From positions 1-46,834 of the forward strand of contig JAAYDC010000017.1 of the NCBI GenBank assembly GCA_012729455.1: a stretch of DNA of 46,834 nucleotides, written 5' to 3'. The notes below the pieces were generated by a model, which was not told where the DNA came from, did not search any database, and worked only from the letters and a program-made list of their open reading frames with translations. The position numbers and the translations under genes are program-made. The DNA comes from Chloroflexota bacterium (GTDB lineage: Bacteria > Chloroflexota > Anaerolineae > UBA1429). Below are positions 3,583 through 42,050 of the stretch, piece by piece; position 1 is the stretch's first letter; each line of letters starts with the position of its first letter.

Positions 3583-3669
3583 TACGATCAGTAAAGGAGG
3601 GCCTATCGAACAACAGCTACGGTTCGGTGTGTGATTTGTGTTCTGTACAACCTAATGAGGAGGCACATG

Positions 3670-37327: not shown

Positions 37328-37356
37328 TTGACGCTCCACCTACCGCATGTTATGCT
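37328..37356 (+). promoter_or_regulatory. Promoter of leader RNA copy 1
   Basis: TTGACG (37328-37333), 17 bases, TATGCT (37351-37356). The same -35 and a near-identical spacer occur before copy 2, where the -10 is TATTAT. Confidence 0.7.
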
Positions 37357-37362
37357 CATTCT

Positions 37363-37454
37363 CAGATAGCTTTTGGATGCCGCAGGACGGTTGGTGGGGA
37401 TCGTTCTATTGGCAAGTCACCAGCCGGATGCGCCTGCATCTGGCTGTTTTGTTT
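37363..37454 (+). ncRNA. Leader/small RNA copy 1, upstream of the GH106-like gene
   Basis: About 92 nt between a promoter and an intrinsic terminator. The terminator is AGCCGGATGC (37422-37431), loop GCCT, GCATCTGGCT (37436-37445), then GTTTTGTTT. An alternative helix, GGTTGGTG (37389-37396) with CACCAGCC (37418-37425), overlaps the terminator's 5' arm by four bases. A second copy at 39916 conserves both helices, with changes that keep pairing. I recognise no known riboswitch. It may be an attenuator for the next gene or a separate small RNA. The remaining 170 bases before the gene contain one arm of a 15-bp inverted repeat. Confidence 0.65.
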
Positions 37455-37566
37455 CCAAAGGCAAGCTCTGCGTTGTTAACGGATATGACCCATTTCAGGT
37501 AACAAAATAATAGAATAAAGCGCACAGCAAATCAAATAGCCGAAAGCTATACCCGGTGTCAATAGT

Positions 37567-37581
37567 CCGGGATACCGCCCG
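37567..37581. repeat. 15-bp inverted repeat, left arm
   Basis: CCGGGATACCGCCCG here is the exact reverse complement of 39769-39783. The two arms bracket the GH106-like gene. No target-site duplication is visible beside them. Confidence 0.7.
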
Positions 37582-37627
37582 TCGACTTTAAACAAACATA
37601 TTCTACTGACAGAAAGAAGGTGCGAAT

Positions 37628-39733
37628 ATGAGCATTATCGAGAAATACGGCAAGAGCTTTGCAAACCCCGACAGACGGAACGCGATCTATCAGATAATCC
37701 ACGGCGGCGCTGTGGACAAAGAAAAGGCTGAATATTACGACTCACGCTGGTTCGGCGGCATCGTGGGCAACGTGCCATATACATCAGAATTCCCCGATTC
37801 TGACGAGGAATGGAATGACACCGCAGCGGGGATACGCGAGTATATCCAGCGGGGTATGTATACCTGGCTTTACGATGAAAAGGGCTATCCCTCGGGTACC
37901 GCCGGCGGCTATGTCACTGAGTTTAACCCCGAGTATGTGGCAAAGGGACTCTACTGCTACGACTACTGGCGCAAGATCAGCGGTCCGAGCACGTATCGCG
38001 CCGACGTGCCGGGAGACAAGCTTTGGAAAGCGCTCTTGCTGCCGGTGGAGGGGGGAGATCCAATCGATGTCACCGACTGCCTCAACGAGCGGGGGGTGCT
38101 GTATATAGAGGTTCCCGCCGGACAGTTCTACCTCTTTATGATGAGTATTCGCCGGCTCTTTGACGGCACCCATGCCACCGAGAGCTACTCTGAGCCGCGC
38201 AACTATATAAGCCTGTCCGACCGCAAGGCGGTGCGCGAGTTTATCAACTGTACCCATGAGAATTACAAAAAGGTGCTGGGCGACGAGTTCGGCAAGGGCG
38301 TTCTCGCCATGTTCACCGACGAACCCTCTCTTATATCCTGGAATATCCGGGCGGGTGTTTTCCCGATCCTGCCCTGGCTTGACAGCTATCCCGCCGACTT
38401 TGAGGCGAAATATGGCTACGAGTTTTACAAGGCATGCACAGCGGTGGTGCTGCGCCGAGGGGACGATGCCGTCAAGCGCCGCTGCGACTTTTGGGAATTC
38501 ATCGCCGACACGATTGCCGACAGCTACTTTGGACAGATCCAGGACTGGTGCCGGGCTAATAACCTCAAATCCTCGGGCCATATGCTGGAGGAAGAGCGGC
38601 TGCAGGCGCACGTTAACAACTATGGCTCGTTCTACCGTTCAATGAAGCGCTTTGACTGGCCGGGCATAGACCAGCTGGCCACCGAGACCTCGGCACTTAT
38701 GCGTGACGGGACCATCCCTATCGCCCGCTTTATAGCCTCCTTTGCCGATATAAACGGCGAACGCGAGGTCTTTACCGAGTTCTCCGACCACAGTGTCAGA
38801 GAACGTGGCGACCGGGCAGAGCTTGGTTGTTACTATGGCTCGGTCAACTGGCATCTTGCTATGGGCGTGAATAACTTTACAAGCTATTATTCCTGGGACG
38901 GCATAACCAAAGAAGAGACCCGCGAACTCAACCGCTATACAGCGCGTTCCGGCGGGCTGCTCAGGATGGGCAGCCGCGACAGCCGCGTGGCTCTGTTCTA
39001 TCCTGAGGCGGCAATGTGGGAAAGCTATATCCCCAACACCAACGTCCGGGCTATCGATTATTCAGAGGCGACACAAGCGCTTGATGATGCCTTTGCCCAG
39101 GCGTCCTGGGATCTCGTCCAGCGTCAGATAGACTTTGACTATATCGACTGCGCGCTGCTGCTGGAGGGCGAGATACAAGACGGACGGCTTATCTACCGCG
39201 ACCGCGCCTATTCGGCTCTGGTTCTGCCCTGTGCACGGGTGCTTGAGGAAGCGGCGATGGCAAAGCTGCTCGAATGCGAGGCGGCAGGAATTGCCATACT
39301 CTTTTGCGGTGAAGCGCCCAGGCTCTCCCGCGAGACCGGCGTCACATCGCCGGCCGCCCTTGAAATTGCCGATGCTATAGAGAAAGGACGCATGGCGCTT
39401 GCTCCCACAGAGGATTTTGGCAAGCTGCTTGATGCCAAGCTGCCCAGAATCTGCCGCACATTGAAAATCGAAAACGAAAAGGGCTGCTACCATCCTATGC
39501 TGCTATCCCACTGCCGTGTCACCGATGATGGGGAGCGGGTGATCTATCTTGCCAACATGGACAGCGTACCCTTTACCGGCAGACTGACAGTTGACGGCTG
39601 CTGTGCTGAGGCGGTGGAATGCGATGCCTTTACCGGCGAAATGACGAAACTTGACGTTGACGGGAGGCTGTCGCTGGATATAACCATACGCCCCGGTGAG
39701 GGACGTTTCTGGCTGATTGCCGGGAGGAAATAG
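37628..39733 (+). CDS. GH106-like glycoside hydrolase (putative alpha-L-rhamnosidase)
   Basis: 701 residues, no signal peptide. WLYDEKGYPSGTAGGYVTEF (about residues 79-98) matches the conserved core of GH106-type rhamnosidases and related uncharacterised families. Further blocks are MFTDEPSL (possible catalytic Glu), SSGHMLEEERLQAH and FTEFSDHSVRERGDRAELGC. C-terminal beta strands (RVIYLANMDSVPFTGRLTVD) form an accessory domain. The protein is shorter than typical secreted GH106 enzymes (over 1000), so it may be a separate cytoplasmic group. The ATG follows GAAAGAAGGTGCGAAT. It is less GC-rich than its neighbours and sits between duplicated leader RNAs, so it is probably an inserted gene. Confidence 0.65.
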   Translation: MSIIEKYGKSFANPDRRNAIYQIIHGGAVDKEKAEYYDSRWFGGIVGNVPYTSEFPDSDEEWNDTAAGIREYIQRGMYTWLYDEKGYPSGTAGGYVTEFNPEYVAKGLYCYDYWRKISGPSTYRADVPGDKLWKALLLPVEGGDPIDVTDCLNERGVLYIEVPAGQFYLFMMSIRRLFDGTHATESYSEPRNYISLSDRKAVREFINCTHENYKKVLGDEFGKGVLAMFTDEPSLISWNIRAGVFPILPWLDSYPADFEAKYGYEFYKACTAVVLRRGDDAVKRRCDFWEFIADTIADSYFGQIQDWCRANNLKSSGHMLEEERLQAHVNNYGSFYRSMKRFDWPGIDQLATETSALMRDGTIPIARFIASFADINGEREVFTEFSDHSVRERGDRAELGCYYGSVNWHLAMGVNNFTSYYSWDGITKEETRELNRYTARSGGLLRMGSRDSRVALFYPEAAMWESYIPNTNVRAIDYSEATQALDDAFAQASWDLVQRQIDFDYIDCALLLEGEIQDGRLIYRDRAYSALVLPCARVLEEAAMAKLLECEAAGIAILFCGEAPRLSRETGVTSPAALEIADAIEKGRMALAPTEDFGKLLDAKLPRICRTLKIENEKGCYHPMLLSHCRVTDDGERVIYLANMDSVPFTGRLTVDGCCAEAVECDAFTGEMTKLDVDGRLSLDITIRPGEGRFWLIAGRK

Positions 39734-39768
39734 TAGAGATAGGTATCTGCATGGCAACCGGCGCTGAT

Positions 39769-39783
39769 CGGGCGGTATCCCGG
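39769..39783. repeat. 15-bp inverted repeat, right arm
   Basis: CGGGCGGTATCCCGG, the reverse complement of 37567-37581, placed 35 bases after the GH106-like stop codon. Confidence 0.7.
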
Positions 39784-39808
39784 GAGATGTTTAACTTGTT
39801 TTTTCGAT

Positions 39809-39860
39809 TCAGGCACAGGTATCCCAGGTGTACGAGTTTGTCGAGCATGGCTTAATGGCC
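39809..39860 (-). pseudogene. Fragment resembling the FeoC-like gene
   Basis: On the minus strand this reads MLDKLVHLGYLCLNR, matching MLDDLVRLGYLCDAL of the FeoC-like protein at 41790-42050. The DNA likeness is clear over about 50 bases, including GTCGAGCATGGC. It is cut off next to the promoter of leader RNA copy 2. It suggests that a unit of leader RNA, gene and feoC was once duplicated in tandem. Confidence 0.5.
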
Positions 39861-39880
39861 GTAAACGGCTCGAGATACCC

Positions 39881-39909
39881 TTGACGCTCTACCTGCCGCG
39901 TGCTATTAT
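39881..39909 (+). promoter_or_regulatory. Promoter of leader RNA copy 2
   Basis: TTGACG (39881-39886), 17 bases, TATTAT (39904-39909). A TATAAT one turn further is an alternative -10. Spacer and -35 match copy 1. Confidence 0.7.
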
Positions 39910-39915
39910 AATAAT

Positions 39916-40015
39916 AGTAATATTAAAATAGCTTTAAATGCCGCAGGACGGTTGGTGGGGAATCGTTCTATTGGCAAGTCGCCAGCCAGACGCGCCTGCG
40001 TCTGGCTGTTTTGTT
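39916..40015 (+). ncRNA. Leader/small RNA copy 2, upstream of binding protein 3
   Basis: About 100 nt. The conserved core GCCGCAGGACGGTTGGTGGG and TCGTTCTATTGGCAAGTC match copy 1 almost exactly. The terminator is AGCCAGACGC (39984-39993), loop GCCT, GCGTCTGGCT (39998-40007), GTTTTGTT. The alternative helix is GGTTGGTG (39950-39957) with CGCCAGCC (39980-39987). Relative to copy 1, one terminator pair changes from T-A to C-G and a G-U becomes A-U, so both arms changed together. Beyond it lie a Shine-Dalgarno-like AAAGGAGG near 40021 with no start codon, then the real one before 40104. Confidence 0.65.
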
Positions 40016-40103
40016 GCCACGAAAGGAGGCGCCTATTCCAATTCATTGATCCTTCTCGCGCTCGTACCGCACTGTTTGACTCACATAAAGGAGGAAAAGA
40101 CTG

Positions 40104-41708
40104 ATGTTGCAGATCAAACGCCGCGAGTTCCTGCGCCTGGCTGCCCTGGGAGCGGTTGCCACCCTGGCAGCCTGTACTCCCGCCACCACCTCTCCCACAG
40201 CTGCACCCAAGGATGGCGAACCGACCGAGGTGCCAGCCGAAAGCAGCTACAAGGGAGAGCTAGAGTTTTACGCGCAGGCCTATACGCCCACTTCTGAGAA
40301 TCCCAACCCCGACCCGAAGGCCCCCAAACGCGAGGCCATGCGCCGGCTGGCAGACGAATGGATGGATCTGCACCCGGGCATCGATTTCAAGTTTATGCAG
40401 GCCCCCGAGGGCGACTATATCTCGTGGATCGGCACCCAGCTGGTGGGCGGCACCGGCCCCGACGTCTTTTGGATCTGGCTGAGCACCCTCAACCAGTGGG
40501 CTGACGAGGGTAAGACTGTGCCGATCAACGATTACCTCGAGCTGCCCAACAAGTATGCCGAGGGCGACTCAACCCCCTGGAAGGAGACCTTTAAGGATCC
40601 CTTCCTGGAAAGCTATTCGACCAAGGGCAACTATGGCGGCGTGCCGCTCGACCTGGTGGGCACGGGTTTGTTCACCAACCTCGACATGATGAAAGAGGCC
40701 GGCATCGACTTTGAGGCCGGCATCAACAAAGAATGGGGCTCGCCCAACTCGTGGGCCGACCTGATCGCCTGGTGCGAACAGCTCAAGGCCGCCGGCTTTA
40801 TCCCGATCTCGGCGGGCGCCGGCATCATCAACCAGTGGTGGATCAGCGGTATGCTGGCCGACCAGTTTCTGCACACCTGGATCGAAAAGTTCGATGGGTT
40901 GAACTATTACGAGAACATTGAAGAAAAATATCAAAAGGGCGTCATCAGCCAGGAAGAAATCTTCCAGGCCTACTATTGCGACAAGTTCGACCCGTATGCC
41001 GCGCCCGAGCTGCGCGATATGTACCGCCTGGTGAAAGAGTGGGCAACCTACATGCCGGTGGGCTTTGCCAACCCGGATTACGGCAACCCGATGGACCTCT
41101 TCCTCAATAACGAGCTGGCAATCGTCTGGGATGGCTCGTGGGCAGTCGGCACTATCCTGCAGGATAGCCGCCGCAAGTTCGAGTTCACCAGCTTTTTGAT
41201 CCCGCCCGTCACCAAGGAATCCTCCGAGTTCGTGCCCGATCCGCCCTTCCTGCCGATTCAGGGAGCCGGTTATGGGTCGCTCTCTTATGGCCTTAACCGC
41301 AAGACGCTTGAAAAGGGCTGCGTGGATGCCTGCGTGGACTGGCTGATGTGGATCACCACCGCCGAGCACGACGAGATGATCGTCAACGAGGTGCCCAGCT
41401 TTATCCCGTCGCATAAAAAGGCCAAGAGCCTGCCCGAAATGTCGGGCTTTGTCCCCTCAGACCGCCATATCCACCCCGTCACCGACCCGTACTCGTGGTT
41501 CGGCTGGCAGGAGGATAAATGGGGCGACCTCTTGCGCCGCGAACAGACCCTCTACTATACCGGTGAGATCGATATCGACACCTTTATGGAGAACCTGCGT
41601 TCACAGACGCCCGCCCTGGCAGCGGATGTGCTGCGCAAGGCAGCTATCCAGTACTCGCCGGATGGCGTCTGGGACCTGACGCGCTGGAAGTGCCAGCCGG
41701 ATATCTAG
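40104..41708 (+). CDS. Sugar ABC transporter substrate-binding lipoprotein 3
   Basis: 534 residues. KRREFLRLAALGAVATLAAC combines a strong Tat motif and a lipobox. The linker is short (TTSPTAAPKDGEPTEVP) and lacks the DAPKAT array of the two paralogues. The mature part starts EFYAQAYTPTSENPNPDPKA and shares GGTGPDVFWIWL, YLELPNKY, VPLDLVGTGLFTN and MIVNEVPSFIPSHKKAKSLPE with them. AAAGGAGGAAAAGACTG precedes the ATG. It is a single gene behind leader RNA copy 2 and ends at a bidirectional terminator, so it is controlled apart from the main locus. The ligand is probably related to those of copies 1 and 2. Confidence 0.92.
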   Translation: MLQIKRREFLRLAALGAVATLAACTPATTSPTAAPKDGEPTEVPAESSYKGELEFYAQAYTPTSENPNPDPKAPKREAMRRLADEWMDLHPGIDFKFMQAPEGDYISWIGTQLVGGTGPDVFWIWLSTLNQWADEGKTVPINDYLELPNKYAEGDSTPWKETFKDPFLESYSTKGNYGGVPLDLVGTGLFTNLDMMKEAGIDFEAGINKEWGSPNSWADLIAWCEQLKAAGFIPISAGAGIINQWWISGMLADQFLHTWIEKFDGLNYYENIEEKYQKGVISQEEIFQAYYCDKFDPYAAPELRDMYRLVKEWATYMPVGFANPDYGNPMDLFLNNELAIVWDGSWAVGTILQDSRRKFEFTSFLIPPVTKESSEFVPDPPFLPIQGAGYGSLSYGLNRKTLEKGCVDACVDWLMWITTAEHDEMIVNEVPSFIPSHKKAKSLPEMSGFVPSDRHIHPVTDPYSWFGWQEDKWGDLLRREQTLYYTGEIDIDTFMENLRSQTPALAADVLRKAAIQYSPDGVWDLTRWKCQPDI

Positions 41709-41789: not shown

Positions 41790-42050
41790 TTACCCAGCCG
41801 CCCTTTTCCCCGCCGCGCTGAGCTGCAGCACCCTCCGATCGCCCACGCCCGGCGGGCATCCGGCACAGCCGCGGCACTCGACGCAAGCCGCTGGGCCGCC
41901 TTTGAGCGCGTCGCACAGATATCCCAGGCGCACCAGATCGTCGAGCATGGCCGTGAGTATGGCCTCATCCAGGCCCAGGTGCGCGGCGAGCTCGGGCAGG
42001 CTCACCGGGCCTTTAACATCCGCCAACGCCCGCAGCACGCGCCGCAGCAT
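41790..42050 (-). CDS. FeoC-like winged-helix protein with Cys cluster
   Basis: 86 residues. MLRRVLRALADVKGPVSLPE, then AAHLGLDEAILTAMLDDLVR, is a winged helix. The motif CVECRGCAGCPPG has four closely spaced Cys residues, as in FeoC proteins that bind an iron-sulfur cluster. Its ATG overlaps the FeoB stop (TGATG), so translation is coupled. FeoC is thought to protect or regulate FeoB under low oxygen. The gene ends just before the shared terminator. Confidence 0.75.
   Translation of the reverse strand: MLRRVLRALADVKGPVSLPELAAHLGLDEAILTAMLDDLVRLGYLCDALKGGPAACVECRGCAGCPPGVGDRRVLQLSAAGKRAAG

Follow-up and report, generated by a model that had tools for sequence, protein, structure and literature searches.

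A promoter-leader-terminator cassette is present twice on the plus strand of the window, a 46,834-nt stretch of a Chloroflexota genome, as copy 1 at 37328-37452 and copy 2 at 39881-40014, each with a predicted RNA of ~100 nt. Copy 1 lies between an MntP-type gene on its 5' side and a GH106-like gene (alpha-L-rhamnosidase family; 37628-39733, plus strand) on its 3' side, the latter assigned by a partial Pfam match to PF17132 (E 1.3e-11). Copy 2 precedes a gene for a sugar ABC transporter solute-binding lipoprotein (40104-41708, plus strand; PF01547 (SBP_bac_1) and PF13416), with no permease gene adjoining it. These GH106 and SBP_bac_1 matches agree with an earlier note made from the sequence, which had placed a GH106-like enzyme and a sugar-binding lipoprotein behind the two copies. 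The copies themselves, in the same orientation and each with a promoter, a hairpin and a terminator, were found where that note had put them.

Both promoters share the form TTGACG-17-TATnnT, of which the note had described the TTGACG and the 17-bp spacer, with the -35 hexamers starting at 37328 and 39881. The copy 1 promoter (37328-37356, plus strand) has the extended -10 element TGTTATGCT, with the hexamer TATGCT ending at 37356, and is identical at 23/29 positions to its copy 2 counterpart (39881-39909, plus strand), whose extended -10 element is TGCTATTAT, with TATTAT ending at 39909; a TG precedes the -10 hexamer in both. Transcription would start near 37364 in copy 1 and 39916 in copy 2. 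Scanning the plus strand between terminator and gene revealed no promoter-like site behind either copy; the 175 AT-rich nucleotides that precede the GH106-like gene could contain an unrecognised promoter.

The first predicted hairpin of the leader, H1, is composed of 5 + 9 stacked pairs closed by a G-rich loop of 6-7 nt. It spans 37378-37414 in copy 1 (fold z -2.9) and 39939-39976 in copy 2 (both plus strand), the two being identical except for a 1-nt indel. H1 is more stable than ~99% of shuffled sequences (z -2.8 to -2.9, both copies), and the full element folds with a z of about -3.7 to -4.0. An H-type pseudoknot between the H1 loop and UCRCC was considered and discarded as presumably impossible: with H1 closed, a linker of 3 nt would have to bridge 14 pairs.

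The terminators are located at 37421-37452 and 39983-40014 (plus strand), each composed of an 11-bp stem (37421-37446 and 39983-40008) followed by TTTTGT (UUUUGU in the RNA). Between the copies, a U-A pair is replaced on both sides by C-G and a G-U pair by A-U, with every pair retained. The double change is matched by equally good outcomes in 246/500 shuffles, and it counts as one event because only two sequences are available. The paired changes previously claimed for the stems are thus present in the terminator and absent from H1, whose 14 pairs never vary between the two copies and show no covariation.

A second helix, mutually exclusive with both hairpins, is a candidate antiterminator. 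Its 5' strand, GGUUGGUGG, lies within H1 and pairs with UCRCCAGCC, which includes the start of the terminator arm, so that H1 and the terminator are both excluded when it forms. The pairing strands are CGGUUGGUGG / UCACCAGCCG in copy 1 (37388-37427, plus strand), overlapping H1 and the terminator 5' arm, and GGUUGGUGG / UCGCCAGCC in copy 2 (39950-39987, plus strand). The single difference between the copies, U-A to U-G, keeps the pairing. The overlapping helix is present in both copies as proposed, its length being 10 bp (copy 1) or 9 bp (copy 2) rather than the 8 originally given; helices of these lengths are reached by 1.8% and 2.9% of matched shuffles, respectively, values uncorrected for the post hoc choice of the helix. 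Folded from its predicted start, copy 1 is near isoenergetic and bistable, at -37.5 for the alternative helix vs -36.5 for H1 plus terminator, and with longer ends the terminator form is favoured. At full length copy 2 strongly favours termination, by about 8 kcal/mol (-30.5 for the alternative helix vs -38.0). At intermediate transcript lengths the alternative helix is predicted to outcompete H1; its lead is clear for copy 1 and short-lived for copy 2. Together, the exclusive helix and the length-dependent energetics give a design that resembles a default-off attenuator.

Alignment within the window reveals 78% identity between the cassettes over 160 nt (E 7e-32), with divergence distributed unevenly. 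The 43-nt core has 42 identical positions, no substitutions and 1 indel, and a search of the window for either core string, with up to 3 mismatches allowed, gives exactly two occurrences, against a shuffle expectation of 0.00-0.01. Differences amount to 6/29 positions in the promoter, 4/34 in the terminator region and 11/32 in the 32 nt 5' of the promoter; the first transcribed nucleotides align poorly. The greater conservation of the core relative to promoter and flanks indicates that the core is either under selection or recently homogenised.

Downstream of the copy 2 terminator, the 5' UTR (40015-40103, plus strand) includes a GGAGGCGCCTAT element at ~40026 and a second Shine-Dalgarno sequence, AAAGGAGG, near the ATG. 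The genome encodes several paralogs of the copy 2 lipoprotein, one of which (contig C25, 26465-28003, minus strand) is 62% identical to it. Upstream of this paralog come the promoter TTGACA-17-TATTGT, 129 nt of leader and a strong terminator of -34 kcal/mol. By the same measure, the distance from terminator to start codon is 95 nt in the C25 paralog vs 96 nt in copy 2. The post-terminator UTRs of the two genes are homologous, with 0/500 shuffles scoring as high, and the C25 leader has no sequence similarity to that of either copy; layout alone is therefore common to the three leaders. The strongest argument for assigning the terminator to the downstream gene is this combination of a homologous UTR and an unrelated leader in the same layout. 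It also suggests that the location before the lipoprotein gene is probably ancestral and copy 1 derived.

Several lipoprotein paralogs in two genomes have an extra Shine-Dalgarno-like GGAGG ~70-80 nt 5' of the actual ribosome binding site (40024-40040, 3592-3606, and loci L047, L055, L050 and L056), in some cases with GCCTAT after it. At L056 (G010:C162), AGGAGG and the 4-codon ORF ATG TAT GAC GCG TGA come ahead of a terminator, CCAGGC...GCCTGGTTTTTTG, in the region 5' of the lipoprotein gene, possibly a leader-peptide attenuator or the end of an upstream operon.

The surroundings of the GH106-like gene bear two marks of another kind. On either side of the gene, at 37567-37581 and 39769-39783, lie the arms of a perfect inverted repeat of 15 bp, CCGGGATACCGCCCG, perhaps the ends of a moved segment; at an E of about 0.02-0.05 in the window, it could be chance. 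Before copy 2, positions 39813-39851 are 85% identical over 39 nt to 41913-41951, part of the FeoC-like gene on the minus strand at a distance of 2 kb (AMLDKLVHLGYLC); by its resemblance, this stretch is the remnant of a winged-helix gene, feoC-like or other.

Further copies were sought with two covariance models, R1 (core plus terminator) and R2 (core only), strict filters being used for the large samples, together with exact pattern scans. None was found beyond copies 1 and 2 in their own genome, in 14 family members, in 396 class genomes with either model, or in 400 phylum genomes, a set overlapping that of the class. Exact patterns gave 0 matches in genome contigs and viral contigs, and blastn gave 0 in plasmids and phages. 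R1 matched in 31/396 class genomes, where the inspected matches outside the element's own genome were terminator-like hairpins or coding DNA lacking the core. Chance was judged to explain the R2 matches (24-32 bits), which included tRNA-adjacent DNA and coding sequences of transmembrane, restriction-enzyme-like and LuxR-type proteins. The covariance search proposed for Chloroflexota thus returned no additional copy from the sampled genomes, an outcome set beforehand as refuting. Homologs with covariation in several species, which define a widespread riboswitch class, were likewise absent from the genomes searched. Close relatives of the lipoprotein occurred, among the named genomes searched, only in MAG JAJFUJ01 (Chloroflexi bacterium, same family), and their leaders gave no R2 match. 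As the lipoprotein family is nearly private, the absence of RNA homologs may reflect poor sampling.

Comparison with Rfam release 15 (4227 models) yielded no match at gathering thresholds across the window and none at E<=10 around the copies, bearing out the statement that the RNA matches no known class; a literature search supplied general comparisons only and, under stricter terms, nothing. Like terminator-type riboswitches and attenuators, the element has a coding gene preceded by a promoter, a structured leader and an intrinsic terminator, with a candidate exclusive helix; unlike them, it matches no known aptamer, and H1 is a simple 14-pair hairpin. It resembles BglG/LicT (RAT) antitermination in having an alternative hairpin that overlaps the terminator in the leader of a carbohydrate gene, and processive antitermination by the NusG paralog LoaP in having a leader hairpin before carbohydrate-type genes. 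The genome encodes no CAT_RBD (PF03123) protein, the RNA-binding protein of BglG/LicT systems, and a single NusG-family protein, lacking the second that LoaP control requires; the absence of a BglG-type RNA-binding protein and the single NusG argue against both modes of control. ANTAR-responsive leaders have two tandem hairpins with hexanucleotide loops carrying A1 and G4. This candidate was rejected: the H1 loop, GGUGGG(G), has G as its first base, and that of the terminator is 4 nt long. The nearest RNAs by host or gene type, neither with a match, are Chloroflexi-1 and msiK. Chloroflexi-1 (RF01698), a structured RNA candidate listed for Chloroflexus aggregans (PMC2864571), shares a Chloroflexota host and was not matched here when the Rfam scan was extended to E<=10. 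The msiK RNA, likewise a candidate cis-regulatory RNA in sugar ABC transporter 5' UTRs, is a long hairpin that has an 11-nt bulge and takes in the ribosome binding site on its 3' side; it precedes an ATPase gene in Actinobacteria (PMC2864571). The present element has no Rfam match.

We favour, at a probability of about 0.58, a cis-acting, default-off transcription attenuator whose cassette would have been copied from the lipoprotein gene to a site before the GH106-like gene. In both copies a promoter lies 5' and an intrinsic terminator sits between it and the coding gene, as such a regulator demands. In the proposed mechanism, H1 would fold first and occupy the GGUUGGUGG strand, whereupon the terminator would form and RNA polymerase would stop before the gene. 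A putative effector (a metabolite, a protein or a change in elongation) would open H1 or stabilise the alternative helix, which would then claim the initial part of the terminator arm, so that the gene would be read. Copying of the promoter-leader-terminator cassette in front of the GH106-like gene would have placed both genes under shared control, the most plausible signal being carbohydrate supply; sugar sensing is no more than a plausible guess. The element is most likely an attenuator of a known general kind with an orphan sequence. That the 43-nt core is a new ligand- or protein-binding RNA domain, sensing a carbohydrate signal and controlling termination in a poorly sampled Chloroflexota lineage, is doubtful.

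The earlier choice between an attenuator and a small RNA stands, given the promoter, terminator and candidate exclusive helix and a paralogous lipoprotein gene with a like layout. Each copy is a complete promoter-terminator unit, termination is strongly favoured in copy 2, and conservation is higher in the core than in the promoter, all of which would suit two independent small RNA genes producing trans-acting transcripts of ~90-100 nt, acting for example via the G-rich H1 loop GGUGGGG, with the downstream genes using their own promoters. Such genes are a minority possibility, since a co-directional coding gene directly follows each copy with no promoter-like site found in between, the C25 paralogous gene retains a terminator at the same distance, and known small RNA families give no match.

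That the genome has two copies and no more, with no other in the sets searched, also fits a recent chance duplication, in which a constitutive promoter and a leaky terminator moved with rearrangements near the GH106-like gene and have no regulatory role; the inverted repeat and the feoC-like relic mean that the region may be rearranged. We consider this quite unlikely: the upstream sequence has diverged by a third, the core is free of substitutions and the terminator changes keep pairing, a pattern that gene conversion would have to be limited to the core to mimic. Attenuation by a leader peptide is hardly credible, although tandem Trp codons occur in both copies (ATG CCG CAG GAC GGT TGG TGG GGA; ATG at 37377 and 39938), because the ATG has no Shine-Dalgarno sequence, the 1-nt indel shifts the frame directly after the Trp codons, neither copy has a stop codon before the terminator, and the downstream genes are unrelated to Trp.

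Should read-through under the favoured attenuator prove sugar-dependent, Chloroflexota would have a leader RNA switch that serves a binding protein together with a glycoside hydrolase, and the lineage would be one that swaps the leader sequence and keeps the layout of promoter, leader, terminator and 95-nt UTR before paralogous transporter genes.
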